A program made the translations under genes and the position numbers. Below the pieces are notes generated by a model. That model did not search any database. It had not been told where the DNA came from and worked only from the letters and a program-made list of their open reading frames with translations. A DNA stretch of 64,000 nucleotides from Pseudarthrobacter defluvii (GTDB lineage: Bacteria; Actinomycetota; Actinomycetes; Actinomycetales; Micrococcaceae): assembly GCF_030816725.1 (NCBI RefSeq), contig NZ_JAUSYG010000001.1, positions 2,480,001 through 2,544,000 of the forward strand, in the 5' to 3' direction. Shown one piece after another: positions 47,525-63,338 of the stretch (the stretch's first letter is position 1; each line of letters begins with the position of its first letter).

Positions 47525-50209
47525 TCAGCCCAGCATGGCCCGGCGGGCACTGTCCGTGCGCTGCGCGGCGTTGCCGATCCGTACGTCGGCGGCGAGTATG
47601 GTTACCCCCGCAGTGCCGCACAAAACGGGGTTGAATTCCACCAGCGCGATCTCCGGGTGGTTGTCCTTCATCCACGCCAGCCTGCCGGCGAGGTCCTCCA
47701 GGGCCTGCACGTCAACAGCGGGCAGGCCCTGGTAGCCGAAGAGCTTCCGGGAGGCCCGCGGGGCACGGATGAAGTCGTGCACGTCCGCGGCGGAAAGCGG
47801 CGGCACCCGGTGCGACCAGTCGTCGAGCAGGTTGACGGCGTCGCCGGCGAGCCCGAACGAGATGACCGGGCCCAGCAATGGATCCTCGATGGCACGGAAG
47901 GTGCAGGCCTGCCCCACAGGCGCCATCGCCTGCACTTCCAGCGCAGGGTCTCCATAGGACGCGAGCGCACGCCGCATCTGCACCAGGTTCTGGCGCAGCG
48001 ACTGCTCGTCCTCGATGCCCAGGCGCACCCCGCCCAGATCCAGCCGGTGGCGAAGGGCAGGAGCAGTGGTTTTCAGGACCACGGGCCAGCCCAGCGCGTC
48101 AGCGGCCGCCACCGCCTCATCCGGTGTGGTGAACGGCAGCGAGGGCAGGACGGAGATGCCGTAGTGCCCCAGCAGGGAAGCAGTTGCGGCGGGGTCCAGC
48201 TGCTTGAGCTGTTCCCCCGCGACATCCCGCAGCAGTTCGTCGAGCTCGGCTTCGGCCTGCCGGGGGTCGCAGCCGGCGGGTTCCACAAACTGCCCCTGGT
48301 CGCGCGCGGCCCACTCCGCGTACCTGACCACGGCGGCGAGCGCGGCCACGGCGGCACCGGGATTGGAATAGCAGGGGACGGTGCATCCCTCCGCTCCCAC
48401 CAGGCCCTCCACGTGGATGGCGGGATCCAGGATGCCGGTGAAGGCAGCCACCACGGGTTTACCGGCGGTTGCCGAGCATTCGGCCAGGACCTGCGCGACG
48501 GCGTCGGCGGTCAGGCCGCGGGCGGGCAGCAGTGCTGCGACGGCGGCGTGCACCGCGTCCGAGGCCAGGGCGTCAAGGAGTGCCTTCCGCAGCGCGGGAA
48601 GGGCCACCGACTGGCCGGCGTCGAGGTCCAGTCCTGAGACCACCTGTGCCACCCCCAGTCCGTGCGCCGCGGCGCTGTCCGCCACCACGTTGCCCAGCGC
48701 CTGGGAGTTGCTGAAGACCGCAACGTCAGGTCCGGCGGGAAGCGGCTGGCCGGAGACCACCTGTGCCACGTCCACGAGCTGCTCCACGGTTTCCACCCGG
48801 ATCACGCCGGACTGGCGCAGCATCGCGTCCAGCGCCCCGGCCGGGGCCTGGGTGGTGCGGACGGCATGGCCCGGCGGCAGGCGCAGCCCCATGGTGTCCG
48901 ACTTCGCCACGATGACCGGCTTGGTGCGGGCCAGGCGCCGCGCGATCCGGGAGAACTTGCGCGGGTTGCCGATGGACTCGAGGTACAGGCCCACGGCGGA
49001 GGTATCGGCGTCGTCCTCCCAGTACTGCATCATGTCGTTGCCGGACACATCCGCCCGGTTGCCGGCCGAGAGGAGGCTGGACACTCCCAGCCGGCGCCGG
49101 CTGGAGGCGGCGTACAGCGAGACGCCGATGGCCGCCGACTGGCTGAACAGGCCCAGGCTGCCGCGCAGCGGCATGGTGGGCGCCATGGAGGCGTTCAGCG
49201 ACACGTCGGGGTGTGTGTTGGCGATGCCCAGCGATGCCGGCCCGATCACCCGCATGCCGTTCGCCCTGGCCTGGCGCACCAGGGCGCGCTGCCGCAGCAG
49301 GCCGCGTTCGCCGTCGTCCGCGAAGCCTGCCGAGGCGACCACCACGCCCTTGACGCCCGCTGTCGCGCACTCTGCCACCACCCCGGGGACTTCCTCGTAC
49401 GGCACGGCGATGATGGCCAGCTGGACGGGTTCGGGAACTTCGGAGAGCTTGCCGTAGGACATCATCCCCGCGAGCTCCAGCGCGTCCGGGTTGATGGCGT
49501 AAACGGAGCCGTGGAAGCCGCCCTCGATAATGTGTTCCAGCAGCTGGTACCCCACGGTCCCCCATTTGCGGCTGGCACCGATGACGGCAACGGACGACGG
49601 CGCCAGCAGCTCCCGGACGCTCCTCGCCTCGGCGCGGTGCTCGCGGGATTCCATCACGGCCCGGGATTTTTCGGTGGGGTCGATGTTGAACTCGAGGCTG
49701 ACGACGCCGTCGTCGAAGTGGCGCTTGACGTCGTAGCCGGCGTCCGAGAAGACCATCAGCATCTTGCGGTTTTCCGGCAGCACCTCCGCGGTGAACTTCC
49801 GGATCCCGTTCTCATGTGCGGCGGTGGCGAGGTGTTCCAGCAGGATGGAACCGATCCCCCTCCCCTGGTGGGCATCGGCGATGTTGAAGGCGACTTCCGC
49901 CTCGGTGGGATCGATGAGCCGGTCGTACCGTCCAATGCCGATGATTTCGCCGTGGATGGTGATCACGAACGCCACCCGGTCCTTGTAGTCCACCTCGGTG
50001 AAGCGCTTGAGCTCCTTGGCGGACAACCTGGCCTTGAACGCGAAGAAGCGCATGTAGATTGAATTCTGCGACTGCCCGGTGTGGAAGGCCTGGACGGCGT
50101 CCACGTCCGACGGGTGGATGGGCCGCAAATGCGCGGTTCCGCCGTCCCGCAGGACGACATCGGCTTCCCAATGTTCCGGATATTCGCCGTCCCCGGGCTG
50201 ATCCACCAT
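47525..50209 (-). CDS. Fused GNAT acetyltransferase / ADP-forming acyl-CoA synthetase (Pat-like)
   Basis: An 894-aa protein lysine acetyltransferase-like fusion. The GNAT domain comes first (about residues 20-175; acetyl-CoA motif AHQGRGIGSILLEHL). CoA-binding and ligase domains follow (SSVAVIGASRKWGTVGYQLLEHI, VKGVVVASAGFADDGERG, LGLFSQSAAIGVS). A C-terminal ATP-grasp-like domain completes it (about 660-890; GWPVVLKTTAPALRHRLDLGGV, ISFGLAG, EFNPV). Enterobacterial Pat has the opposite order; GNAT-first forms occur in actinobacteria. Likely targets are acyl-CoA synthetases. ATG 50209 is 6 nt after TAGGCT, so it is probably leaderless. Confidence 0.9.
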   Translation of the reverse strand: MVDQPGDGEYPEHWEADVVLRDGGTAHLRPIHPSDVDAVQAFHTGQSQNSIYMRFFAFKARLSAKELKRFTEVDYKDRVAFVITIHGEIIGIGRYDRLIDPTEAEVAFNIADAHQGRGIGSILLEHLATAAHENGIRKFTAEVLPENRKMLMVFSDAGYDVKRHFDDGVVSLEFNIDPTEKSRAVMESREHRAEARSVRELLAPSSVAVIGASRKWGTVGYQLLEHIIEGGFHGSVYAINPDALELAGMMSYGKLSEVPEPVQLAIIAVPYEEVPGVVAECATAGVKGVVVASAGFADDGERGLLRQRALVRQARANGMRVIGPASLGIANTHPDVSLNASMAPTMPLRGSLGLFSQSAAIGVSLYAASSRRRLGVSSLLSAGNRADVSGNDMMQYWEDDADTSAVGLYLESIGNPRKFSRIARRLARTKPVIVAKSDTMGLRLPPGHAVRTTQAPAGALDAMLRQSGVIRVETVEQLVDVAQVVSGQPLPAGPDVAVFSNSQALGNVVADSAAAHGLGVAQVVSGLDLDAGQSVALPALRKALLDALASDAVHAAVAALLPARGLTADAVAQVLAECSATAGKPVVAAFTGILDPAIHVEGLVGAEGCTVPCYSNPGAAVAALAAVVRYAEWAARDQGQFVEPAGCDPRQAEAELDELLRDVAGEQLKQLDPAATASLLGHYGISVLPSLPFTTPDEAVAAADALGWPVVLKTTAPALRHRLDLGGVRLGIEDEQSLRQNLVQMRRALASYGDPALEVQAMAPVGQACTFRAIEDPLLGPVISFGLAGDAVNLLDDWSHRVPPLSAADVHDFIRAPRASRKLFGYQGLPAVDVQALEDLAGRLAWMKDNHPEIALVEFNPVLCGTAGVTILAADVRIGNAAQRTDSARRAMLG

Positions 50210-50286: not shown

Positions 50287-52797
50287 ATGGCCCGCCGCCA
50301 AAGTCCAGCCCCGATCCCCGACGAGAACTACACGGAGAACATCGTCGATATCGATGTCACCTCCGAGATGCAGGGATCGTTCCTGGAGTACGCGTACTCG
50401 GTGATCTACTCGCGTGCGCTCCCCGACGCCCGTGACGGGCTCAAGCCGGTACAGCGCCGCATCCTCTACATGATGAGCGACATGGGCCTGCGCCCGGACC
50501 GCGGCCACGTCAAGAGCGCCCGTGTGGTGGGCGAGGTCATGGGCAAGCTGCACCCGCACGGCGACGCCGCCATTTACGACGCCATGGTGCGCATGGCGCA
50601 GGACTTTTCGCTGCGCCTTCCGCTCATCGACGGACACGGCAACTTCGGCTCGCTCGACGACGGCCCGGCAGCGCCGCGGTACACCGAGGCCCGGCTGGCG
50701 GCGGCCGCCCTCACGCTCACCAACCACCTCGACGAAGACGTGGTGGACTTCGTCCCCAACTACGACAACCAGCTCACCCAGCCGGACGTCCTTCCTGCAG
50801 CCTTCCCCAACCTGCTGGTCAACGGCGCCACGGGCATCGCCGTCGGCATGGCCACCAACATGGCCCCGCACAACCTGGTGGAGGTCATCTCCGCGGCCCG
50901 GCACCTGATCGCCAACCCGGACGCCACCCTGGATGACCTCATGCGGTTCGTCCCGGGACCGGACCTGCCCAGCGGCGGCCGGATCGTGGGCCTGGACGGC
51001 ATCCGGGATGCGTACGCCACCGGCCGCGGATCCTTCAAGACCCGCGCCAAGGTGGAAATCGAACAGCTCTCCGCGCGCCGCACCGGCCTGGTGGTCACCG
51101 AACTGCCGTACATGGTGGGCCCGGAAAAGGTGATCGAGAAGATCAAGGACGCGGTCAACGCCAAGAAGCTGACCGGCATCAGCGACATCGTGGACCTGAC
51201 CGACCGCAAGCACGGGCTGCGGCTGGTGATCGAGCTCAAGAACGGCTTCAACCCGAACGCCGTGCTGCAGCAGCTGTACCGGTACACGCCGATGGAGGAC
51301 TCCTTCGGCATCAACAACGTCACCCTGGTGGACGGCCAGCCGCAGACGCTGGGCCTGGTGGACCTGCTGTCCGTCTACGTCAACCACCGCATCAACGTGG
51401 TCCGCCGCCGCACCGTGTTCCGGCTGGGAAAGAAGAAGGACCGGCTGCACCTGGTGGAGGGCCTCCTCATCGCCATCGTGGACATCGACGAGGTCATCCA
51501 GATCATCCGGTCCTCCGACGAGGCCGCCGCCGCCCGTGAGCGGCTGATGTCCATCTACGACCTCACCGAGATCCAGGCCAACTACATCCTGGAGCTGCGC
51601 CTGCGCCAGCTGACCAAGTACTCCCGGATCGAGCTGGAGAAGGAGCAGGACGAGCTGCGCCGCGAAATCGCCGAGCTGCAGGCCATCCTGGACTCCGAGG
51701 AGCTGCTGCGCACCGTCGTCTCCGACGAACTCGCCGCCATCGCCGAGGAACACGGCACCCCGCGGCGGACGGTCCTGCTGGAATCCGAGGCCGTGGCCCC
51801 CACCGTGGCCGCCGAAATTGCCGGGGCCAGGAAGGGCAAAGCCGCTCCGCTGTCACTGGAAATCGCCGACGACCCCTGCTGGGCCATCCTCACCGCCTCC
51901 GGGCAGGTGGCCCGCACCAGCAACCAGGAGCCCCTCGCCGAGGCAGGTCCGCGCAGCAAACATGACGTCTACACCTCGGTGGTGAAGACGTCCGCGCGCG
52001 GCGAGATCGCGGCCGTCACCTCGCTGGGCCGCATGCTCCGGCTCCAGGTCATGGACATGCCGGTGCTTGCGCCCATGGCCGGGCTGCCCAACCTGGCCGG
52101 CGGCGTTCCAGCCAAGGACTTCCTCACGCTGGTGAAGGGCGAGTCGCTGGTGGCGTTCGTTCGCCTGGATGAAGTCCTGGCCGTCGGCACGGCACAGGGC
52201 GTGGTCAAGCGTGTCCAGCCGGACTACCCGCTGAACCGCGAAGACTGGGAAGTCATCACCCTCAAGGACAAGGACTCCGTGGTGGGCGTGGCTCCGGCCG
52301 GCGCTGACGACGCCGAACTGGTGTTCCTCACCCGGGAGGCCCAGCTGCTGAAGTTCCCCGCCTCCGCCGTCCGTCCCCAGGGGCGTACCGCCGGCGGCAT
52401 GGCCGGGATCAAACTCGCCGCGGGTGACCAGGCCATTTTCTTCGGCGCCGTACAGCCCAATGACGGGTCCGCCGTCGTGGTCACCATCGCCGGCACCAAC
52501 GGTGCCCTCCCCGGCACGGCCCCGGGCACGGCCAAGGTCACGGCGCTTTCCGAGTATCCCGCAAAGGGACGCGCCACCGCGGGTGTCAGGTCACACCGGT
52601 TCCTCAGGGGCGAGGACATGCTGCTGCTCGCCTGGGCAGGGCACGGCCCGGCGAAGGCTTCATCCGCCGCCGGGGTGGCACGGTCGCTGCCGCAGGAACA
52701 CGGCCGGCGTGACGGCTCCGGCGTACCGCTCTCCCAGGCCGTCGAAGCGGTGGGCCCGGCCATGGCCTGGCCGGACGCTTCTTCAGCGGAGGACTGA
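50287..52797 (+). CDS. parC: DNA topoisomerase IV subunit A
   Basis: An 836-aa type IIA topoisomerase A subunit that decatenates chromosomes with ParE. The DNA-cleavage domain has the catalytic Tyr132 in AAPRYTEAR. The quinolone-determining region is [12 protein letters not shown]: Ala94 stands where GyrA/ParC usually has Ser, and Asp98 is retained. A coiled-coil region ([20 protein letters not shown]) and a C-terminal beta-pinwheel follow. The C-terminal domain lacks the GyrA box (QRRGGxG), supporting ParC over GyrA. ATG 50287 follows AGAAGGA. Its partner parE is 8.4 kb away on the other strand. Confidence 0.93.
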
Positions 52798-52841
52798 CGC
52801 GGCGGCGTAGCTTGTAGCGCAGCTGCGCCAACCGCACCGCT

Positions 52842-52853
52842 TAGACTGCTCCC
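52842..52853 (+). promoter_or_regulatory. -10 hexamer positioned for a leaderless DinB transcript
   Basis: TAGACT at 52842-52847, then GCTCCC and ATG 52854. Confidence 0.5.
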
Positions 52854-53372
52854 ATGCCTATCGTTCCTGATGAAAAAGACTGGACCTGGGTCCTGTCCCG
52901 CCCCTGCCCGGAATGCAATTTCGATGCCTCCTCCGCCACCCCGGCAACGGTTCCAGGGAGCATCGAAAGCATGATTCCCCGGTGGCTGGCCGTCCTCCGC
53001 CGGTCGGACGCGGCGGAGCGCCGCGACGACCAGACGTGGTCGGCACTGGAGTACGCGTGCCACGTGAGGGACGTCTTCACCCTGTTCGTCCAGCGGCTGA
53101 ACCTGATGCTGGCGGAGGACGGCGCCCGCTTCGCGGACTGGGACCAGGACCGGACAGCCATCGAGAAGGACTACGCCAACGCCGACCCATCAGAGGTGGG
53201 ACCCGAGCTGGCCGCAGAAGGGCATGAGGCCGCCGAGTCCTTCGCCGGGGTCCCGGAAGAGGACTGGGGACGCAGGGGGCTGCGGAGCAACGGCTCGGAG
53301 TTCACCGTCCTCACACTCTCCCAATACTTCCTGCACGACGTCGTCCATCACCTGCACGACGTCGACGGCTAG
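52854..53372 (+). CDS. DinB-family protein
   Basis: A 172-aa four-helix-bundle protein of the DinB/MDMPI superfamily, which often binds a metal through three His residues and may use mycothiol or bacillithiol. Candidate ligands are His in ALEYACHVRDVF and two in YFLHDVVHHLHDV. It begins with PIVPDEKDWTWVLSRPCPECNFD, a common actinobacterial entry. It stands alone between parC and convergent cydDC. A mycothiol-dependent role is inference only. Confidence 0.85.
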   Translation: MPIVPDEKDWTWVLSRPCPECNFDASSATPATVPGSIESMIPRWLAVLRRSDAAERRDDQTWSALEYACHVRDVFTLFVQRLNLMLAEDGARFADWDQDRTAIEKDYANADPSEVGPELAAEGHEAAESFAGVPEEDWGRRGLRSNGSEFTVLTLSQYFLHDVVHHLHDVDG

Positions 53373-53382
53373 GAGTACGCTT

Positions 53383-53399
53383 CCCGGGTCCCTCCCGGG
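53383..53399 (-). terminator. Weak hairpin at the end of the cyd operon
   Basis: CCCGGG arms separated by 5 nt, between the convergent DinB and cydDC genes; no clear T run. Confidence 0.3.
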
Positions 53400-53401
53400 C
53401 T

Positions 53402-56400
53402 TCAGCGCGAACGCGCCAGCGGCGCCCGGCCCCTTGCGGCGAATGCCGGGAGGTCGAGGCGTCCGTCACCGGCCAGGATGTCGGCCGGGTTATGGGTGAC
53501 CAGCACCACCGTGCGGTCCCGCAGGCCGGAACGCAGGTCCGCGAGCATGGCTGCCGCAGACTCCGCGTCCAGGTGCGCGGTGGGCTCATCCAGCAGGATC
53601 ACTTCCGCGCCGGTCAGCAGTGTCCGCGCCACCGCCAGGCGCTGGCGCTCGCCGCCGCTCAGGAAGGCACCGCCGGGCCCGATCCGGGTGTCCAGCCCGG
53701 CCGGCAGCCGGCCCACCAGCCCGGAAAGTCCGACGGCGGCCAGGACGGCCTCCAGCTCGTGGTCCGCCGCCGGCGGTGCGCCCTTTGCTGCCGGCCGTCC
53801 CAGCAGCAGGTTCCCCCTGATGGTGGAGTCGAAGAGGTGGGCCTCCTGGGGGCACCACGCCGCCCGGCCGGTCACCTTCACCTGGCCTGCGGCGGGCGGC
53901 AGGAAACCCAGCAGGACCGAGAGCAGGGTGGACTTGCCGGAGCCTGAGGGCCCCGTGACCGCCAGCCAGCGCCCGGGGGCTGCCGCGGCGTTCACTCCTG
54001 CAAACACCGGAGAGCCTCCCGGCCAGGCTGCTGCCAGGTCCACCAGTTCGACGCCTGGGGCCCCGCCTGTCCTGGGGGGAACGGGATGCAGGCCGTCGGT
54101 CGTTGCGCCGCCTCCCTCAAGGGCCCCGGACTCCCCCACGCGGCGCAGGACGGCACGGAGCGCGGGGTACTGTCGCACCGCCGTCGTCATGGCTGCATAC
54201 GGTTCCACCAGCGCGAGGACCAGCAGGACGATGACCGCTGCCGTGGCGGGCGCCACCCGGGTTTCCAGGACCTCCGGGCCCGCGAGCAACGCGGCGGCCA
54301 GGGCGGCAGCACCGCAGGCGGCGGTGGCAACGGCGTGTCCCAGGCCGTCGGCCCATGCGGAGCGCTGGGACGCGCGGGTGGCCTCCCGGTCCTCCGCCAG
54401 CAGCGCGTCGAGCACGCGGGGCGCCACGCCGTTGGCGTGCAGTTCGGCCCGGGCATCGAGGGCAGCGGAGACGCGGCGCAGGACGCCGGAGCGCAGGGAC
54501 TGCTCGGCGCTGGCGGACTTCCGGTCTCCCCACAGGGCGGCGGCGGGCGCCAGCAGCAGGCCGCTGATGGCAGCGCCCACCACGGCCGGAAGGGCGGCCG
54601 GGACCAGGACGCCCGTCGCGGCCACGGCCAGGATGGAGACCGCAAATGCCGTGACGGGCGGCAGGACCACGCGCGGCAGGAGGTCGCGGACGGTGTCGAC
54701 GTCGTCGATCACCGTACCCAGCACGTTGCCGCCCTGCAGGAGCCGGCGCAGTGACAGTGCCCTGCGGCTCAGGGATTCCCACAGCCGGCCGCGGAGGCGG
54801 GTGAGGGCTGCGAACACGGCATCATGCAGCAGCAGCCGTTCCCAGTAACGGAACACCGCGCGGCCAATGCCGAAGAAGCGGACGCCGACGATGGCCGTCA
54901 GGAGGTAGAGGATGGGCGGCTGCTCACTGGCACGGATGATGAGCCAGCCGGAAAGGCCGGAAAGCGCGATGGCGAAGACGGCCGCCAGGGTGCCGACGAA
55001 CGCCGCAGCAGCGAACTTGCCCCGGACCGGCGCCAGGAGCGCTGCGAGAAGCCGGCCGGCGCTAGGAGCGGACCGGGCAACGCCGGCCCTGGCCTTACGG
55101 GTGTCTCCGCCGGACTTTCCGTCCCCGTGCACCGCGATTGCCGTGGCGGCTGGCTCCGATGCGCCGGGCACGTCTGCGGATGCCGGGCTGTTTGCCGGGG
55201 CGGGTGCTGCCGGCAGGATGCCGTCAACGCTGCCGTGGTGCACCGCTGCCGGCGTCGGGTCCGCCGGCAGCACGGGCACCAGCAGGTCCGCCAGCTGGCG
55301 GGTGCGCTGGTTGTGGGCCACCAGGATCACGGTGACCTGGCCGCGGAGCCGGCGGATCGTGTTCTCGACGATGAGTGCCGAGGCGTCGTCCAGGTGGGCG
55401 GTGGGCTCGTCGAGCAGCAGCAGGGTGGCACCGGCGTCGATCCTGGCCAGGCCGCGGGCCAGGGCAACCCGGCGCAGCTCGCCCGGGCTCAGCTCCGCCG
55501 GGTGCTTGCCGGCCAGGTGGCCCGCTCCTGCCCGTTCCAGGCAGCGGCGGGCAGCAGCTTCGGCTGTGAACCGGTCCAGGCCGTGGGCGGAGTCCGGCGA
55601 AAGGTACAACAGCACCTCGTCCAGGACGGTTGCGGCCACCATGACCGGGTGCTGCGGCACCCAGGCCACGGCACCGCGGTCCAGGCCGCTGATGGATCCG
55701 GTGATGCTGGTCCCAGTGCCGCTTGTCCCTGTGCTGCTGGTCCCGGTACCGCCCGTTCCGCCGCCGTGGCCGATGGTGCCGGCGAGGACGCCCAGGACGG
55801 TGCTCTTGCCGGCGCCGCTGGGGCCGTCAAGGGCGGTGATCCTGTCCTGCGGCGCGGTGAAGGTGAGGGGGCCGACGGCGGCTCCTGACCTCCCTGCATA
55901 GGTCACGGTGAGTGCGGTGACCTCCAGGGGGGCGCCCGGCCTGCCGGCCTTGGCCGCGGCCAGCGGTGTTGGCTCGGGGGCACCGGTCACGGCGGCCGTT
56001 TCGGCGAGCGCCACCCTGCCATCGTCGCTGGCGTGGTGGGCGGTGCCGAGTTCCCGCAGCGGGAGGTAGCAGTCCGGCGCCAGGAGGAGCGCCAGGAGGC
56101 CCGCCTCCAGCGGCATGTCGCCGTGGACCAGCCGGACGCCGATGAAGACGGCCACGACCGCCACGGAGATGGTGGCGATGAGTTCCAGGGCCAGGGCGGA
56201 CAGGAACGCCGTCCGCAGGGTGCCCATAGTGCGCGAGCGGTATTCCTCCGAGATCTCCTCCAGCGCCTTGCGCTGCGCCGTGGCCCGGCCCAGCCCGACG
56301 AGGACCGGGAGGCCCTTGGCGAGCTCGAGCATGTGCGCAGACAGCCGCGCCAGGGAGGCCTGGGCCTGCCGCACGTTGTCCTCGGTGTACCGGCCGATCA

Positions 56401-56905
56401 GGACCATGAACACCGGGATCAGCGGCACGGTCAGCACGATGACCAGTGCGCTGACCCAGTCCGCAAAGAGGATCCGGGCTCCCAGTAACAGCGGAACGGC
56501 GGCGCAGTTGACCAGCGCCGGAAGGAACTGGGTGTAGTAGCTGTCCAGGGCGTCCAGGCCGCGGGTCGCCAATACCGCCAGGCCACCGTCGCCGGGGCCG
56601 GTCCCGCGCACCCCGCTGCGCAGGGCCCGCTCCAGCAGTTCGGCGCGAAGCTCTTCCTTGACGCCCAGTGCTGCGCGGCGGGCGGCGACGGCCTGCCCCC
56701 AGACCGTCAGGGACCGGAGGACGACGCCGGCGAGCCCGGCCGCGATCTGCTGCGCCCAGGCAGGGTTCCCGCCGACCAGTCCGGCAAGGACGGAGGCCAC
56801 CGCCTGCCCGATGAGGACCAGGGAGAGGGCCTTGAGCGCAGCCAGCAGTCCCAGCCAGTAGATTGCGGACCGGGTTGCCGGACCGGCGGGGAAGGACGGC
56901 CGCAT
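53402..56905 (-). CDS. cydDC: CydDC fused ABC exporter for cytochrome bd assembly
   Basis: A 1167-aa single-chain version of the CydD and CydC half-transporters, which export glutathione/cysteine-type reductants or haem-linked cargo needed to mature cytochrome bd. The first half has a transmembrane region (about 15-310) and an NBD with GPSGAGKST, signature LSPGEL and LLLLDEPTAHLD. The second half (about 600-1160) repeats this with GPSGSGKST, canonical LSGGERQR and VILLDEPTAHLD; both have the His switch (VAHN, VTHN). ATG 56905 lies 1 nt after the cydB stop. Confidence 0.92.
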   Translation of the reverse strand: MRPSFPAGPATRSAIYWLGLLAALKALSLVLIGQAVASVLAGLVGGNPAWAQQIAAGLAGVVLRSLTVWGQAVAARRAALGVKEELRAELLERALRSGVRGTGPGDGGLAVLATRGLDALDSYYTQFLPALVNCAAVPLLLGARILFADWVSALVIVLTVPLIPVFMVLIGRYTEDNVRQAQASLARLSAHMLELAKGLPVLVGLGRATAQRKALEEISEEYRSRTMGTLRTAFLSALALELIATISVAVVAVFIGVRLVHGDMPLEAGLLALLLAPDCYLPLRELGTAHHASDDGRVALAETAAVTGAPEPTPLAAAKAGRPGAPLEVTALTVTYAGRSGAAVGPLTFTAPQDRITALDGPSGAGKSTVLGVLAGTIGHGGGTGGTGTSSTGTSGTGTSITGSISGLDRGAVAWVPQHPVMVAATVLDEVLLYLSPDSAHGLDRFTAEAAARRCLERAGAGHLAGKHPAELSPGELRRVALARGLARIDAGATLLLLDEPTAHLDDASALIVENTIRRLRGQVTVILVAHNQRTRQLADLLVPVLPADPTPAAVHHGSVDGILPAAPAPANSPASADVPGASEPAATAIAVHGDGKSGGDTRKARAGVARSAPSAGRLLAALLAPVRGKFAAAAFVGTLAAVFAIALSGLSGWLIIRASEQPPILYLLTAIVGVRFFGIGRAVFRYWERLLLHDAVFAALTRLRGRLWESLSRRALSLRRLLQGGNVLGTVIDDVDTVRDLLPRVVLPPVTAFAVSILAVAATGVLVPAALPAVVGAAISGLLLAPAAALWGDRKSASAEQSLRSGVLRRVSAALDARAELHANGVAPRVLDALLAEDREATRASQRSAWADGLGHAVATAACGAAALAAALLAGPEVLETRVAPATAAVIVLLVLALVEPYAAMTTAVRQYPALRAVLRRVGESGALEGGGATTDGLHPVPPRTGGAPGVELVDLAAAWPGGSPVFAGVNAAAAPGRWLAVTGPSGSGKSTLLSVLLGFLPPAAGQVKVTGRAAWCPQEAHLFDSTIRGNLLLGRPAAKGAPPAADHELEAVLAAVGLSGLVGRLPAGLDTRIGPGGAFLSGGERQRLAVARTLLTGAEVILLDEPTAHLDAESAAAMLADLRSGLRDRTVVLVTHNPADILAGDGRLDLPAFAARGRAPLARSR

Positions 56906-56906
56906 G

Positions 56907-57956
56907 TCAGCCCTTGGTGGTGAAGGCCTTGGCCGCCACCGCCGGGAGGAAGCTGTGGGCTTCCGGGATGTGCGCCGCGCTGACGCGCCGGCGGAACACC
57001 CAGTAGGTCCAGGCCTGGTAGGCAATCACCAGGGGAAGGCCAAAGGCGGCCACGATGCTCATCAGCCCCAGGGTGTAGTCCGAGGATGAGGCGTTGGAAA
57101 TGGTGAGGTCAAAGGCGCTGTCCAGCGTGGAGGGAAGTACCACCGGAAACACGGCCCCGAAGATGGAGGCGGTGCCCAGGACCAGGAAGGCGCCCAGGGC
57201 CAGGAATGCCCTGCCTTCGGATCCGTTCCGGGCCAGCAGCCAGGCGGTGGCGGCAGCGCCAACGGCCAGGACCACGGCAGCCCAGGTCCACGGCTTGCCA
57301 TCCATGAACTGGACGGCAAGGGCCCATGCCGCGATGGGCAGGAGCAGGACCGGCAGGAGCCGCACGAACCACTGGCGGGCACGGTGCCGGACCTCGCCGT
57401 CGGTCTTGAGGGCCAGGAAGGCCAGGGCGTGGAGCAGTGCGAACCCCACCACCGCGACCCCGCCCAGCAGGGCGTAGCCGCTGAACCAGGCCATGGGACC
57501 GCCTTCGCGGTCGCCGTTGGCGTTCAGCGGCAGGCCGGTGGTGGTCAGGGCCAGGGCGGCGCCCACACCGAAGGCCGCGAAGAAGGAACCCAGTGCGATG
57601 GCCCAGTCCCACCGGTTCCGCCAGCTGTCCGTGTCCACCTTGCCGCGGTACTCGAACGCGACTGCACGGAAGATCAGGGCCAGCAGGACCACCAGCAGGG
57701 GAAGGTAGAGCGCGGAGAACAGCGAGGCGTACCAGAGGGGGAAGGCGGCGAAGGTGGCGCCTCCGGCGGTCAGCAGCCACACTTCGTTGCCGTCCCATAC
57801 GGGTCCGATGGTGTTCAGCAGCACGCGGCGTTCGGTGTTGTTGCGGGCGAAGAGCTTCATCAGCATGCCGACGCCCAGGTCGAAGCCCTCCAGGAAGAGG
57901 TAGCCGGTCCACAGCACCGCGATGGCGATGAACCATATGGTGGGAAGCAGTTCCAT
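56907..57956 (-). CDS. cydB: Cytochrome bd ubiquinol/menaquinol oxidase subunit II
   Basis: A 349-aa membrane subunit with about eight to nine helices. The family start ELLPTIWFIAIAVLWTGYLFLEGFDLGVGML and the block NTIGPVWDGNEVWLLTAGGATFAAFPLWYA are diagnostic. It partners CydA in a high-affinity, non-proton-pumping terminal oxidase used under low oxygen or respiratory stress. It lies 15 nt after cydA and 1 nt before cydDC. Confidence 0.96.
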   Translation of the reverse strand: MELLPTIWFIAIAVLWTGYLFLEGFDLGVGMLMKLFARNNTERRVLLNTIGPVWDGNEVWLLTAGGATFAAFPLWYASLFSALYLPLLVVLLALIFRAVAFEYRGKVDTDSWRNRWDWAIALGSFFAAFGVGAALALTTTGLPLNANGDREGGPMAWFSGYALLGGVAVVGFALLHALAFLALKTDGEVRHRARQWFVRLLPVLLLPIAAWALAVQFMDGKPWTWAAVVLAVGAAATAWLLARNGSEGRAFLALGAFLVLGTASIFGAVFPVVLPSTLDSAFDLTISNASSSDYTLGLMSIVAAFGLPLVIAYQAWTYWVFRRRVSAAHIPEAHSFLPAVAAKAFTTKG

Positions 57957-57971
57957 TGTGTGTTTCCTCTG

Positions 57972-59576
57972 CTAGTAGGCGAAGGCCAGGACGTCGTCGG
58001 CAGTTTTGGATTCCCCGTTGCCGCCGGGGCCGGGGGTTTGGTCCTCGTTCTCGTCAGCCGGTGCTGAGCCAAGTTCCGGCATTGCGGACACGACGCCGCC
58101 GCGGATGTACTTGACCAGCAGTTTCACTTCCACCACCAGCAGGACCGCGTACACGGCGGTCAGGGCAACCAGCGACGTGATCAGCTCCCCCGCGGAGACG
58201 CCCGGGGATACCGCGGCGGCGGTGAACATGAACACCTGGTCGATGCCGCTGGGATCGGGGTTGGGCGCCACGACGAAGGGCTGGCGGCCCATCTCGGTGA
58301 AGATCCAGCCTGCGGCGTTGGCGCCGAAGGGGGCCAGGATGCCGAAGACTGCCAGGCGCATGAGCCAGCGGGATTCCGGCACTGTCCCCTTGCGGGTGAG
58401 CCAGAGCGCCACCAGTGCCGCCAGGGCGGCGAGGCCGCCGAAGCCGATCATCATCCGGAATCCCCAGTAGGTGACCTCCATGACGGGCACGTACTGGATC
58501 TCCTGGCCGGCGCGCTCACCGTAGATGGGGTTGTCCGGCAGGTGGGTTCCGTAGTTGGCCTTGTATTCGGGCAGCAGGCTGTTGACGCCCTTGACCTCGG
58601 TGGTGAAGTCGCCCTTGGCCAGGAAGGACAGGATGCCCGGGACTTCGATCACGGCCACCACGTCGTCGCAGTTCTTGGATCCCACGTTTCCGACGCTCAG
58701 GACGGAGAAGCCGGTGCCGTCGTGGCAGGCGGCCTCGGCGGCGGCCATCTTCATGGGCTGCTGCTGGAACATCAGCTTGCCCTGCAGGTCGCCGGTGACC
58801 GCGGTGCCGGCGAACGAAATCATGGCGACGACGGCGCCGATGCGCAGGGACCGGATCCACACGTTGTGGTCGGCAAGGTCGCGCCCCGGGATGCGGGCGT
58901 CTTCCCCGGGGATGACCCGGCCGTCGGCACCCACCGTATCCACGCCATCGTGCCTCCTCCGCCAAAGGTGGTACCAGGCGATTCCCAGGAGGAAGCCGCC
59001 TGCCACGGCGAGGGCGCCGAACAGGGTGTGCGGGACGGCCACGAGCGCTGTGTTGTTGGTGAAGACGGCCCAGGCGTCGGTCATCACCGGCCGGCCGTTG
59101 ATCATTTCCACCCCCACCGGGTGCTGCATCCAGCTGTTGGCGACGATGATGAAGTAAGCGGAAAGCGCCGAGCCGATGACCGCCACCCACAGGCAGGCAA
59201 GGTGGATGGCGGGCTTGAGCTGCTTCCAGCCGAAGATCCACAGGCCCAGGAACGTCGACTCGACAAAGAAGGCCAGGAGGGCCTCAAGGGCCAGGGGCGC
59301 CCCGAAGACATCCCCCACGAAGCGGCTGTACTCGCTCCAGGCCATCCCGAACTGGAACTCCTGCACAATGCCGGTGGCCACGCCCATAATGAAGTTGATG
59401 AGGAACAACTTTCCCCAGAACTTGGTCATGCGCAGGTACTCGGGCTTGCCGGTGCGGTACCAGGCGGTCTGGATGACGGCCACCACGAGGCCGAGGCCGA
59501 TGGTCAGCGGCACCATCATGAAGTGGTAGACGGTGGTGATACCAAATTGCCAGCGTGCAATTTCCAAGGCGTCCAT
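57972..59576 (-). CDS. cydA: Cytochrome bd oxidase subunit I
   Basis: A 534-aa haem-bearing subunit. His18 in VYHFMMVP is the probable haem ligand; NSWMQHPVG supplies another His; GWIFTEMGRQPFVV carries the conserved Glu-Met-Gly-Arg segment. The quinol-binding Q loop is short (no long insert after EIQYVPVMEVTYW), as in most Gram-positive enzymes. ATG 59576 has AGTAGGGA upstream. The leader contains two copies of TTCTACnnnnnGTAGAA, placing the operon under a BlaI-type regulator. Confidence 0.96.
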   Translation of the reverse strand: MDALEIARWQFGITTVYHFMMVPLTIGLGLVVAVIQTAWYRTGKPEYLRMTKFWGKLFLINFIMGVATGIVQEFQFGMAWSEYSRFVGDVFGAPLALEALLAFFVESTFLGLWIFGWKQLKPAIHLACLWVAVIGSALSAYFIIVANSWMQHPVGVEMINGRPVMTDAWAVFTNNTALVAVPHTLFGALAVAGGFLLGIAWYHLWRRRHDGVDTVGADGRVIPGEDARIPGRDLADHNVWIRSLRIGAVVAMISFAGTAVTGDLQGKLMFQQQPMKMAAAEAACHDGTGFSVLSVGNVGSKNCDDVVAVIEVPGILSFLAKGDFTTEVKGVNSLLPEYKANYGTHLPDNPIYGERAGQEIQYVPVMEVTYWGFRMMIGFGGLAALAALVALWLTRKGTVPESRWLMRLAVFGILAPFGANAAGWIFTEMGRQPFVVAPNPDPSGIDQVFMFTAAAVSPGVSAGELITSLVALTAVYAVLLVVEVKLLVKYIRGGVVSAMPELGSAPADENEDQTPGPGGNGESKTADDVLAFAY

Positions 59577-59605
59577 GGCGGTCCCTACTGTTAGCCAATG
59601 CAGTC

Positions 59606-59622
59606 TTCTACGCTTTGTAGAA
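59606..59622. promoter_or_regulatory. BlaI-type operator, site 1
   Basis: TTCTAC-GCTTT-GTAGAA, perfect 6-5-6 inverted repeat starting 30 bp before the cydA start codon. Confidence 0.75.
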
Positions 59623-59629
59623 CTCCAAC

Positions 59630-59646
59630 TTCTACAAAGTGTAGAA
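59630..59646. promoter_or_regulatory. BlaI-type operator, site 2
   Basis: TTCTAC-AAAGT-GTAGAA, centre 24 bp from site 1. It overlaps a possible cydA -10 box (TACACT on the minus strand). Confidence 0.75.
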
Positions 59647-59716
59647 CATCCTCGATGGCGGACGAAAACCACTCCCCCTCCCTAGGATGGCGCGTCGGGG
59701 CGCGGCGCGCCAGATG

Positions 59717-59733
59717 TTCTACCCGATGTAGAA
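59717..59733. promoter_or_regulatory. BlaI-type operator, site 3
   Basis: TTCTAC-CCGAT-GTAGAA, about 104 bp before the blaI-like start and next to a possible TAAATT -10 box (59752-59757), consistent with autoregulation. Confidence 0.72.
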
Positions 59734-59836
59734 GGTTTGCTGGTTTCGGGGTAAATTTAGTTGTGTAGTTGAACAACCGCGTGACGTCACCGCGCCCCTC
59801 CGGGCGCACGGTGCGGGGAAATAAAGGAAAAATGAC

Positions 59837-60220
59837 ATGGCTAGTCTTGGTGAACTGGAACGGGCAGTGATGGATCTGCTCTGGGGGGGCCAGGAAGCGG
59901 CTACGGCCAATACCCTGAGGGACCAGTTGGCGCGCACGTCGGCGGCACAGGGCGGTACCGGGCACGAGGGCAAGGAACTGGCCGTTACCACGGTGCTCAC
60001 GGTCCTCTCCCGCCTGGAGAAGAAAGGGCTGGTGGAACGCGAACGCGGAACCCGCCCGCACCGCTACCAGGCTGTGTCGAGCCGTGCGGACCACACCGCG
60101 GAACTGATGCATGAGGTCCTCGGCTCAGCGCCGGACCGCGAGGCCGTCCTGGCCCGCTTCATTGGGTCTGTGTCCGAAGGTGAAGCCGAAACGCTGCGCA
60201 AACTGCTGGGCCACCTCTAG
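59837..60220 (+). CDS. BlaI/MecI/CopY-family transcriptional repressor
   Basis: A 127-aa winged-helix repressor. The N-terminal MASLGELERAVMDLLWGGQEAATANTLRDQL and VTTVLTVLSRLEKKGLVERERGTRPHRYQAV are the BlaI family's DNA-binding domain. The C-terminal part (from about residue 85) is the dimerisation domain cleaved by the partner protease in BlaI/MecI. ATG 59837 follows AAAGGA. The gene is divergent from cydA with three matching inverted repeats between them, and 6 nt upstream of an M56 protease gene. Confidence 0.92.
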   Translation: MASLGELERAVMDLLWGGQEAATANTLRDQLARTSAAQGGTGHEGKELAVTTVLTVLSRLEKKGLVERERGTRPHRYQAVSSRADHTAELMHEVLGSAPDREAVLARFIGSVSEGEAETLRKLLGHL

Positions 60221-60226
60221 CAGACC

Positions 60227-61219
60227 ATGTTCTGGGCCTCATACCTGCTGGCGGTCCTTGCGATCATCCTGGCCTGGCCGGTGCCGATCCTCCTGTCACG
60301 GGCACATTGGCCCGCCAGGTCGCCGTTCACGGCAATGCTCCTGTGGCAGGCCATCGCGCTGGCAGGTGGACTGTCCATGATCGGTGCCATGCTGGTCTAC
60401 GGCCTGGAGCCTGTTGGTGACAACCTCATCGCGGGGCTGCGCGCCCTCGCCGGAATGGTGCTTTTCAACGCCCCCACCACGGCACTTGGCTTCTGGCACA
60501 TCTTCGCGCTGTCCGCTGCCGCCCTGCTCACGGCCCACCTGGTCTTTACGCTGCTGCTGACGTACTACAAAATCCAGCGCCAGCGCCGCCGCCACCGCGA
60601 ACTGCTCGCGCTGCTCGCGTCACCTTCCAGCCAGGACGCCGGCACCCTGGTCATCAGCCATGACTCACCGGTGGCCTACTGCCTTCCGGGCGGCGCCCGT
60701 TCCGTGACAGTCCTGTCGGACGGCCTGATGGCAGCCCTTGAACCGGCAGAACTCCGGGCCGTCCTGATCCACGAGAACGCCCATTTGAACCAGCGGCACC
60801 ACCTTTTGCTCTGGGCCTTCGCCGCCTGGCGGCAGGCCCTGCCGTGGCTGCCCACCACACGGCTGGCCCAGGAATCCGTGAACTCGCTGATCGAGATGCT
60901 GGCCGACGATGTGGCCCTGCGGACCGAGAGCAAAACCACCCTCATTAAGGCCATCGCCATCGTGGCAAGTGGCTCAGCGGGGGGTGCCGGCGCCGGTGAT
61001 GTCCGGCCTTCCTCTCCCACCCTGGCCCTGTCCGGGCTTGAAGCGGCATCAGGCGGATCCGGCTCGGACGCCGTCCGTACCGCAGCTTCGCGGGTCAGCC
61101 GCCTCCTGACGCCCCAGCCGCCGCTTCCTGTCGCCGTCCGCAGCGCGGTCATGGCCGGCAGTGCCCTGCTGCTCGCCCTGCCGACCGCATTGCTGGTGGT
61201 TCCCGGACTGCTCGGCTGA
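60227..61219 (+). CDS. M56-family membrane zinc metalloprotease (BlaR1-like, no sensor domain)
   Basis: A 330-aa protein with four or five transmembrane helices. The gluzincin motif HENAH is at residues 182-186, a downstream Glu lies in SLIEMLADDVAL, and LVISHDSPVAYCLPGG precedes as in BlaR1/MecR1. The penicillin-binding sensor domain of BlaR1 (another 250 residues) is absent, so beta-lactam sensing is unlikely. It lies 6 nt after the repressor gene and is convergent with parE. It probably inactivates the repressor by cleavage. Confidence 0.9.
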   Translation: MFWASYLLAVLAIILAWPVPILLSRAHWPARSPFTAMLLWQAIALAGGLSMIGAMLVYGLEPVGDNLIAGLRALAGMVLFNAPTTALGFWHIFALSAAALLTAHLVFTLLLTYYKIQRQRRRHRELLALLASPSSQDAGTLVISHDSPVAYCLPGGARSVTVLSDGLMAALEPAELRAVLIHENAHLNQRHHLLLWAFAAWRQALPWLPTTRLAQESVNSLIEMLADDVALRTESKTTLIKAIAIVASGSAGGAGAGDVRPSSPTLALSGLEAASGGSGSDAVRTAASRVSRLLTPQPPLPVAVRSAVMAGSALLLALPTALLVVPGLLG

Positions 61220-61229
61220 CCCACCGCGG

Positions 61230-63338
61230 TCAGGCGTCGATGCGCTCCCGGTCCAGGCTGGACGCTCCGGCGATGATGAAGTCCTTGCGGGGTGACACAT
61301 CCGAGCCCATCAGCAGGTCGAAGATCTCCTCCGCCTGCTGCGCGTTTTCGATCCCGACTTTGCGCAGCGTGCGGTGCCGCGGGTCCATGGTGGTCTCCGC
61401 CAGCTGCTCGGCGTCCATCTCCCCCAGGCCCTTGTACCGCTGGATCGGTTCCTTGTACCGCTTGCCCTCCTTGGCCAGGCGGGCCAGGAGCACGTGGAGT
61501 TCCGCCTCGGAGTAGGTGTAGATCATCTCGTTGGCCTTCTGGCCGGCGTTGATGACCTCCACGCGGTGCAGCGGCGGCACCGCTGCGAATACCCTTCCCT
61601 CCAGGATCATGGGGCGCATGTACCGGAAGAACAGGGTCAGCAGCAGGGTCCGGATGTGGGCGCCGTCCACGTCGGCGTCCGTCATGAGGATCACCTTGCC
61701 GTACCGGGCGGCGCTGATGTCGAAGCTGCGGCCGGAGCCTGCGCCCACCACCTGGATGAGGGCCGCGCACTCGGCGTTGGACAGCATGTCCCCCACCGAC
61801 GCTTTCTGGACGTTCAGGATCTTGCCGCGGATGGGCAGCAGCGCCTGGAAGTCGGAGGAACGCGCCAGCTTGGCAGTGCCCAGCGCGGAGTCGCCTTCCA
61901 CAATGAACAGTTCGGAACGCTCGACGTCGTCCGTCCGGCAGTCAGCAAGCTTAGTGGGCATCGAGGAAGTTTCCAGCGCGTTCTTGCGCCGCTGCGTCTC
62001 CTTGTGGACGCGGGCCGAGATGCGCGACTTCATCTCGCTGACGATCTTTTCCAGCAACAGCGCGGACTGGGCCTTGTCATTGCGGTTGCTGGCGGACAGC
62101 TTGGCGGAGATTTCCTTCTCCACCACCCGGGCTACGATGGCCCGGACGGCGCTGGTGCCGAGGATCTCCTTGGTCTGGCCCTCAAACTGCGGTTCCGCCA
62201 GCCGCACGGTCAGCACCGCCGTCAGGCCAGCAAAGATGTCGTCCTTTTCGATCTTGTCGTTGCCGGCCTTGAGCTTGCGAGCGTTCGCCTCCACCGCTTT
62301 GCGGAAGGTCTTAACCAGGGCCTGCTCGAAGCCCGACTGGTGCGTCCCGCCCTTGGGGGTGGAGATGATGTTTACGAAGCTGCGCACGGTGCTGTCGTAG
62401 CCGATGCCCCAGCGCAGCGCCACGTCCACCTCGCAGTCCCGCTCCACCTCGGCCAACTGGCTGTGTCCGCGGTCGTCAAGGACCGGGACGGTCTCCTTGA
62501 ATTTTCCCGAGCCGTGCAGGCGCCAGACGTCGGTGACGGCAGGATCAGCGGCGAGGAACTCGACGAACTCCGAGATGCCGCCGTCGTGGTGGAAGACCTC
62601 CTCATGCGGCCCCGCTTCGCCGGGGGTCCCTGCCAGCCTGCGCTCGTCCCGCACCGTGAGCTTGAGTCCGGGCACCAGGAAGGAGGTCTGGCGGGCACGT
62701 GCCACCAGGTCCTCGTAGGAGAACTTGGCATCCGGGGTGAAGATCTGCCGGTCGGCCCAGTAGCGGATCCGGGTTCCGGTGACGCCGCGTTTGGCCTTGC
62801 CAACGACGTCCAGCACGGAGTCGTTGACGAACGGGGTGAACGGCGCTGCCGGGTCCAGGCGGGACCCGGTGTCCGTGAAGCGTCCGGGTTCACCCCGCCG
62901 GAAGGACATTTTGTAGGTCTTGCCGCCGCGGTCCACCTCCACGTCCAGGCGGGAGGACAGGGCGTTCACCACGGAGGCGCCCACGCCGTGCAGGCCGCCC
63001 GAGGCGGTGTAGGAGCCGCCGCCGAACTTACCGCCGGCGTGCAGCTTGGTGAAGACCACCTCGACACCGGTGAGTCCCGTCTTGGGCTCCTTGTCGATGG
63101 GGATGCCGCGGCCGTCGTCGTGGATCTCCACCGAGTTGTCGGCGTGGAGGATGATGCGGATGTCGTGGCCGAACCCGGCCAGGGCCTCATCCACGGAATT
63201 GTCGATGATTTCCCAGAGGCAGTGCATGAGGCCGCGCGAGTCGGTTGAGCCGATGTACATGCCCGGGCGCTTGCGGACGGCTTCGAGGCCTTCCAGGACG
63301 GAGAGGTGCCGGGCGGTGTACTCAGAGCTTGGTGCCAC
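61230..63338 (-). CDS. parE: DNA topoisomerase IV subunit B
   Basis: A 702-aa ATPase subunit. GHKL motifs are EIIDNSVDEALAG, DDGRGIPID and GGLHGVGASVVNALS; the TOPRIM domain has FIVEGDSALG and LMTDADVDGAHIRTL; QRYKGLGEMD ends the core. Absence of a long insertion and pairing with a ParC-type A subunit support ParE over GyrB. The GTG 63338 has AAGGAG 10 nt upstream. The parE-DUF7455-sigA order matches Streptomyces. Confidence 0.94.
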   Translation of the reverse strand: MAPSSEYTARHLSVLEGLEAVRKRPGMYIGSTDSRGLMHCLWEIIDNSVDEALAGFGHDIRIILHADNSVEIHDDGRGIPIDKEPKTGLTGVEVVFTKLHAGGKFGGGSYTASGGLHGVGASVVNALSSRLDVEVDRGGKTYKMSFRRGEPGRFTDTGSRLDPAAPFTPFVNDSVLDVVGKAKRGVTGTRIRYWADRQIFTPDAKFSYEDLVARARQTSFLVPGLKLTVRDERRLAGTPGEAGPHEEVFHHDGGISEFVEFLAADPAVTDVWRLHGSGKFKETVPVLDDRGHSQLAEVERDCEVDVALRWGIGYDSTVRSFVNIISTPKGGTHQSGFEQALVKTFRKAVEANARKLKAGNDKIEKDDIFAGLTAVLTVRLAEPQFEGQTKEILGTSAVRAIVARVVEKEISAKLSASNRNDKAQSALLLEKIVSEMKSRISARVHKETQRRKNALETSSMPTKLADCRTDDVERSELFIVEGDSALGTAKLARSSDFQALLPIRGKILNVQKASVGDMLSNAECAALIQVVGAGSGRSFDISAARYGKVILMTDADVDGAHIRTLLLTLFFRYMRPMILEGRVFAAVPPLHRVEVINAGQKANEMIYTYSEAELHVLLARLAKEGKRYKEPIQRYKGLGEMDAEQLAETTMDPRHRTLRKVGIENAQQAEEIFDLLMGSDVSPRKDFIIAGASSLDRERIDA

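Follow-up and report, generated by a model that had tools for sequence, protein, structure and literature searches.

In Staphylococcus aureus, the membrane protease BlaR1 cleaves the repressor BlaI directly, according to an excerpt of PMC9834060. For mycobacteria, excerpts of PMC5473688 report, with reference to Sala et al. 2009, binding of BlaI to the promoters of the genes for ATP synthase and cytochrome bd; they also state that BlaR has no sensor domain, and propose a link of WhiB4, BlaI and BlaR to respiration. BlaI binding at the Rv1303-atp promoter is described in an excerpt of PMC12565901. Control of cyd by a BlaI is thus not new as an idea, since it has already been published for mycobacteria. 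Here, a 64,000-bp stretch of Pseudarthrobacter defluvii DNA (contig NZ_JAUSYG010000001.1, positions 2,480,001 to 2,544,000; hereafter the window) was analysed, in which cydA, encoding a cytochrome bd subunit, is divergent from blaI, a gene for a BlaI/MecI-family repressor that is followed by a gene for a membrane zinc protease.

The locus resembles the S. aureus BlaR1–BlaI pair in that the repressor gene adjoins a membrane zinc protease gene, with BlaR1 structures as the best fold matches, but the beta-lactam sensor domain is missing here and the predicted target genes are respiratory. With M. tuberculosis BlaI–BlaR (Rv1846c–Rv1845c) it shares a homologous repressor (2g9w), a sensorless protease as neighbour, and cyd and atp as targets, which are predicted here, are reported in M. 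tuberculosis (excerpts cited above) and carry dyads, as does blaI, in other mycobacteria. It differs from that system in that blaI is divergent from cydA, the half-site is TTCTAC instead of TAC[TG]AC, sites also precede hemQ, the cytochrome c biogenesis (ccs) genes, hmp and qcrC (of which the mycobacterial comparison covers hemQ and qcrC), and no beta-lactamase was noticed among the targets. The redox regulator Rex represses cyd and is unrelated to BlaI in both protein and mechanism. A paper on Streptomyces avermitilis that mentions cydA 28 times has a regulator of aerobic metabolism as its subject (PMC5355995). In a literature search with most subscription journals outside its coverage, none of the titles or abstract openings listed concerned a cyd-linked arrangement in Micrococcales, a TTCTAC operator, control of hemQ, ccs or hmp by BlaI, or a part of BlaI in mediating the Q203 response.

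The explanation we favour, at a probability of roughly three in four, is that an autoregulated winged-helix BlaI would bind 17-bp dyads close to respiratory promoters, and that the neighbouring BlaR1-like protease, devoid of a beta-lactam sensor, would most likely inactivate BlaI upon respiratory or membrane disturbance, leading to joint derepression of the operons. The predicted regulon comprises the blaI operon, cydAB-cydDC, hemQ, the cytochrome c biogenesis operon, hmp, a PPOX-like gene and a gene for a small membrane protein, with weaker one-mismatch sites at atp, qcrC and the ABC-COX15 (heme A synthase) stretch. The sites, the regulon, the linkage, the covariation and the protease architecture described below are observations at the level of the sequence.

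Probable operator dyads between cydA and blaI

The pattern TTCTACN5GTAGAA matches exactly three times in the window (O1–O3, Table 1) and never in 100 dinucleotide shuffles. All three copies fall within the 260-bp gap (59577–59836) bounded by the start codons (ATG) of cydA (59576, minus strand) and blaI (59837, plus strand), as an earlier note on this DNA had described; the range given in that note, 59606–60220, extends into blaI, and the protease gene falls outside it. O1 and O2 have their near edges 29 and 53 bp before cydA, with 24 bp from start to start, and the near edge of O3 lies 103 bp upstream of blaI, making O3 a probable site of blaI autoregulation. When six such gaps from the same family were aligned (own genome included), 35 of the 50 invariant columns were half-site bases, and every invariant run of three or more columns was a half-site or its immediate edge, while the five-base spacers diverged. 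In three f18 genomes (loci L038, L042 and L043), three dyads, some of them imperfect, stand in a row at 21-bp steps between cydA and blaI, a spacing of about two helical turns that suggests cooperative binding.

Distribution over genomes links the dyads to BlaI. An order-wide search of 119 genomes found BlaI in 50 and not in the other 69, and the exact pattern was then searched in 38 of them, namely 18 with BlaI (families f1, f6 and f18, picked because the TTCTAC half-site had already been seen at their blaI loci) and 20 of the 69 without. Exact sites occurred in 17 of the 18 genomes with BlaI, 88 in total (7 for the backward pattern used as control), and in none of the 20 without (backward control 1). 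The half-site also follows the recognition helix, which was located by analogy in 26 aligned BlaI proteins chosen from blaI loci. Thirteen proteins with V, A, T or L at position 50, L or H at 54 and E at 61, in or after the helix, have TTC[TG]AC in their best site, and eleven with Y50, M54 and A61 have TAC[TG]AC; helix and half-site vary together in 24/24 proteins with a site, none having been found for the remaining two. In mycobacteria and Nocardia, TACGACN5GTAGTA stands in all 16 aligned blaI promoters (chosen from 80 loci). The TTCTAC-N5-GTAGAA dyads are thus very probably BlaI operators. The earlier proposal that the dyads are of BlaI type and that cyd is a target gains support from co-occurrence, the alignment footprint, the helix covariation and a similar dyad at mycobacterial cydA.

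The repressor itself passes the gathering score of PF03965 (Penicillinase_R; 73 bits, cut-off 22.6), matches 2g9w/Rv1846c at 59.8 bits, and is modelled with a winged-helix fold like that of Rv1846c. CopY carries a C-terminal cysteine metal motif, whereas this BlaI has no cysteine at all. The weak similarity to the CopY equivalog TIGR02698 (23.7 bits) is far under the cut-off of 121.95, and a CopY-like copper sensor was ruled out on these two grounds. Copper-linked genes nevertheless adjoin sites in some f6 relatives, and three in genome G024, and copper may act indirectly as a signal. Elsewhere in the genome (L023, about 3739350–3739499) PF03965 is matched once more, weakly and over part of its length, at 23.3 bits and thus barely above its cut-off of 22.6.

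Table 1. Genes and predicted operators of the locus, and the further exact sites of the genome (window coordinates unless another locus is named)
Feature	Position	Strand	Evidence or remark
cydA, cytochrome bd subunit I, 534 aa	57972-59576	-	PF01654
cydB, cytochrome bd subunit II	56907-57956	-	PF02322, TIGR00203
Fused CydD-CydC ABC exporter, single 1207-aa frame, start codon uncertain	53402-57025	-	TIGR02857 (52-583), TIGR02868 (661-1180)
Predicted BlaI operator O1 TTCTACGCTTTGTAGAA	59606-59622	.	exact match; half-sites invariant in six aligned gaps (own included)
Predicted BlaI operator O2 TTCTACAAAGTGTAGAA	59630-59646	.	exact match; half-sites invariant in six aligned gaps (own included)
Predicted BlaI operator O3 TTCTACCCGATGTAGAA	59717-59733	.	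exact match; last base differs in one of six aligned gaps
blaI, BlaI/MecI/CopY-family winged-helix repressor, 127 aa	59837-60220	+	PF03965, 2g9w/Rv1846c match, model
M56/M48-type membrane zinc protease, 330 aa	60227-61219	+	starts 6 bp past blaI stop; PF01435; BlaR1-like fold
Exact site 52 bp before the histidine phosphatase gene of the phosphatase-TlpA-like-ResB-CcsA (cytochrome c biogenesis) operon			adjoining YceI-like gene (assigned by eye) runs in the opposite direction
Exact site before hemQ			PF06778
Exact site before PPOX-like gene			PF12900
Exact site before hmp (flavohaemoglobin)			adjoins Rrf2-family gene
Exact site before 124-aa membrane protein gene	L022:8016-8387 (gene)		no Pfam match

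Around the locus, the block of cyd genes, blaI and protease, together with a DinB-like gene, is flanked by parC-like and parE-like topoisomerase genes (50287–63338). A parE match stands beside the block at 13 of 30 blaI loci as well; in two relatives blaI follows a parC match, and the cyd genes between them are lacking. Long fused ABC frames resembling the CydDC fusion of the window also occur at L097 and L098. Further out (47525–50209), a GNAT acetyltransferase is fused to an acyl-CoA-synthetase-like protein with CoA-binding and ATP-grasp parts.

Predicted targets beyond cyd and their probable age

The earlier note had read the locus as a dedicated respiratory switch for cydABDC and had proposed a genome scan for the dyad. 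That scan returned eight exact sites in 4.58 Mb (two for the backward pattern, 0.03 expected from the base composition of the window), and five of them lie beyond the cydA-blaI gap, contrary to a dedicated switch. Each of the five recurs at the same gene in relatives. Among the eight sampled family genomes with BlaI (own included), exact sites precede hemQ in all eight, the 124-aa gene in six, hmp in five, the histidine phosphatase gene in four (a fifth genome has its site between the phosphatase and the TlpA-like gene), the PPOX-like gene in four and qcrC in two, with a one-mismatch qcrC site in three more. One relative, G067, has 15 exact sites, including those before SURF1, a ctaB-like UbiA gene, COX2 (ctaC), an ABC gene and a gene resembling sdhC. 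The counterpart of this ABC gene in the own genome lies behind a one-mismatch site and 5' of an ABC-2 permease gene and COX15. The sites mostly lie 10–100 bp ahead of the matched gene start, which suits a promoter-bound repressor.

Beyond their cyd-blaI gaps, these eight genomes have 43 exact sites, which by our own reading divide into 26 at haem, cytochrome, respiration or globin genes, 12 at recurring or small membrane protein or PPOX genes, and 5 unassigned; this count includes a globin-like gene at L122, which was assigned by eye and gave no Pfam match, and the ABC gene, whose name is taken from its neighbour. In f6, the sites are more heterogeneous and adjoin genes for CtaG, DUF1775 (YcnI-like), multicopper oxidase, DsbD-like, CtaG/CopD, universal stress and unnamed membrane proteins, and in two f18 genomes a second site precedes a long fused CydDC-like ABC frame. 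In G024 (contig 3, L078–L080), three exact dyads lie within 27 kb by multicopper oxidase, DsbD-like and CtaG/CopD genes.

One-mismatch sites were used only if they recurred at the same gene in relatives, as for atp, qcrC, ABC-COX15 and a gene for a 117-aa membrane protein; those by sucCD, ilvD and a 113-aa gene may be chance matches and were left as such. The 117-aa gene (L029:2384–2734, no Pfam match) has a one-mismatch dyad here and an exact one in G095. Together with the 124-aa protein, its product is a candidate for an unnamed respiratory factor.

The range of the system is likewise wider than cyd. The gene cydA occurs in 110 of the 119 genomes of the order, and blaI lies within 500 bp of it in 35 of the 50 genomes with BlaI and within 6 kb in 41, although some of the far BlaI hits may not be orthologues. 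Two genomes of the same family, G067 and G109, have no cydA match and yet keep blaI, the protease and a parC match (G109 also parE). The predicted operator stands 70 bp before blaI in G067 and 95 bp in G109, and the two genomes have 15 and 5 exact sites, respectively. A third, G053, has cydA and neither a BlaI match nor a site.

From blaI loci we built one degenerate dyad, T[TA]C[TG]ACN5GT[AC]G[AT]A, and tested it unchanged on promoters that had not been viewed before. At the cydA genes of 16 named mycobacteria and Nocardia it matched at 12/12 positions in all 17 copies, starting 27–89 bp upstream; in these promoters no match at 12 came from the backward pattern or from half-sites spaced by 4 or 6 bases. 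In the 10 of these genomes that were scanned, cydA lies on a different contig from blaI or more than 170 kb off. A 12/12 dyad was also present at all five mycobacterial ATP synthase loci found in eight genomes searched. Dyads of at least 11/12 precede atp in 9 of 15 Micrococcales with BlaI (backward control 2) and in none of 7 without, and TTCTATN5GTAGAA, with its one mismatch, stands before atpI at the same position in four genomes of the same genus, own included. The ATP synthase link that the earlier note had mentioned for mycobacteria is thus visible as dyads at atp promoters. As in the respiratory BlaI regulon cited for M. tuberculosis, the predicted operator is found here at the blaI and cyd promoters (exact) and at atp (one mismatch). 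At qcrC, dyads of at least 11/12 occur in 5 of 15 genomes with BlaI, all within the family, and in 0/8 mycobacteria and 0/5 genomes without BlaI. From these comparisons blaI, cyd and atp look like an old core shared with mycobacteria, and the haem and cytochrome targets look like a later expansion in this family.

Several observations weigh against this picture. G006 has BlaI and not one exact site, and a promoter scan of the cydA-blaI gap recognised no sigma-70-like promoter. The covariation of helix and half-site follows two lineages only and therefore does not amount to many independent events. Allowing one mismatch gives 15 sites in the genome against 14 for the backward control, exact ones counted in both, so this class is not above chance, and taking all of its members as real was rejected. 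Some sites, above all in f6, are intragenic or lie by genes with no respiratory role. At the looser threshold of at least 10/12, atp dyads are barely above control (13 against 9 of 15 Micrococcales with BlaI), and the positions of the atp sites vary. For hemQ, no dyad of at least 11/12 was found in 11 genomes of f18 and f6 with BlaI, in eight mycobacteria or in ten genomes without BlaI, and hemQ was rejected as an ancient target, having no such site outside the family. Finally, whole-genome counts of the mycobacterial dyad in ten mycobacteria and Nocardia are hardly enriched (56 against 47 for control), and placement alone is therefore informative there. In a QcrB inhibitor study of M. tuberculosis, moreover, 13 genes rose; cyd and mymA were the principal operons, and atp is not named in the excerpt of PMC6178619.

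The protease, the signal and alternative explanations

The protease has the motif HENAH at residues 182–186, E223 and four hydrophobic stretches. It scores 38.6 bits with PF01435 (M48; cut-off 20.3) and misses the gathering score of PF05569 (23.5 bits, cut-off 31). By sequence, no solved structure matched it at E 1; in a fold comparison, BlaR1 structures were the best matches, and the HExxH zinc site lies within the membrane domain of the BlaR1 fold. Families missing from the fold lists were not counted as evidence. An extracellular C-terminal beta-lactam sensor domain is absent from all 35 aligned proteases (the window protease, 30 of the 43 frames from other loci and 4 database proteins), which extend at most 11 residues beyond the last membrane helix. 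Since that domain is missing, BlaR1-style beta-lactam sensing through it is ruled out. An apparent extra domain in a 916-aa protease frame (L159) was rejected, as the frame continues across a run of N and enters the neighbouring gene, and it was excluded from the alignment. Cys152, in an AYCLPG motif, is kept in 33 of 35 homologues, and a role as a redox or metal switch is a possible idea only.

BlaI binding and repression, cleavage and the signal are what we infer. With S. aureus BlaR1 as the model, the protease probably removes BlaI, and release by such an M56-type enzyme is made plausible by its BlaR1-like fold, its HExxH motif and its position as the next gene. The content of the regulon suggests a respiratory signal. 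Excerpts of the mycobacterial literature describe responses that fit: a copper-deprived chalkophore mutant of M. tuberculosis induces cydABDC, qcrABC and the ATP synthase genes, and induction of cydAB and ATP synthase is attributed to Q203 as well (PMC12140626); cyd and atp genes are raised in a sigC mutant under copper limitation, with blaI discussed in that context (PMC7924339); and in M. abscessus treated with clofazimine, 14 genes changed at 24 h, cyd among them, with enrichment of ATP synthase (PMC8765290).

It is unlikely that BlaI is constitutive or otherwise controlled and that the neighbouring protease has another role, with no proteolytic release. The absence of the very sensor domain that drives BlaR1 speaks for this, but a protease homologue adjoins blaI in all 30 best loci, a frame with HExxH and E..AD is present at each of the 44 blaI loci, the fold is closest to BlaR1, and BlaR1 of S. 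aureus cleaves BlaI directly (PMC9834060, excerpt). A primary role in cell-wall or beta-lactam stress, with the respiratory genes as a side branch, seems quite improbable. Mycobacterial BlaI represses blaC, and amoxicillin-clavulanate induces both blaR-blaI and cydAB (excerpts of PMC5473688), yet the sensor domain is missing throughout the aligned proteases, the regulon in the family is mostly haem and respiration, and inspection of the eight loci with exact sites, by eye and with Pfam for part of the genes, brought no beta-lactamase to notice. At the 15 exact and one-mismatch sites of the genome, read by eye with no family search made, none was noticed either.

That some other regulator binds the TTCTAC dyads, with BlaI as a bystander, is very improbable, since exact sites in the 38 genomes searched are confined to those with BlaI, the dyad lies within blaI's own promoter across orders, and the half-site changes together with the BlaI recognition helix. 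Dedication to cydABDC is hardly tenable and was rejected: three of the eight exact sites do lie in the cydA-blaI gap, and blaI is often close to cydA, but five further sites recur at their genes in relatives, G067 and G109 retain the system with no cydA match, and mycobacteria have atp sites. The word switch, in the sense of an oxidase exchange, is doubtful too, because the same dyad precedes qcrC in some relatives, and COX2, SURF1 and the ctaB-like gene in one relative.

Implications for respiratory regulation

Beyond the locus, BlaI and a sensorless BlaR1-like protease may form a general actinobacterial sensor of respiratory-chain distress, in which a loss of electron flow, of haem or copper supply, or of energisation would be detected within the membrane and BlaI then destroyed. 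We put this forward tentatively, at somewhat less than even odds. If true, the alternative oxidase and ATP synthase, and in Micrococcaceae also the haem, cytochrome c and nitric oxide-defence genes, would rise jointly, and BlaI would be the missing regulator behind the co-induction of cydABDC and ATP synthase upon respiratory inhibition in mycobacteria. BlaI offers a candidate answer to a puzzle of mycobacterial physiology, namely what raises cytochrome bd jointly with the ATP synthase genes once the bcc:aa3 branch is poisoned or starved of copper (joint induction described in excerpts of PMC12140626 and PMC7924339). A prediction is that a BlaR1-type protease can sense a cue other than a beta-lactam using only its membrane and protease domains.

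For P. defluvii, a soil actinobacterium, predicted BlaI sites extend beyond one oxidase to a wider group of genes for respiration, haem and energy, and similar arrangements recur in relatives; the small unnamed membrane proteins among them are flagged as possible respiratory factors. BlaI proteins are classed with antibiotic resistance, but the core targets shared by Actinobacteria appear to be an oxidase and ATP synthase, which would make BlaI a respiratory regulator in these organisms.
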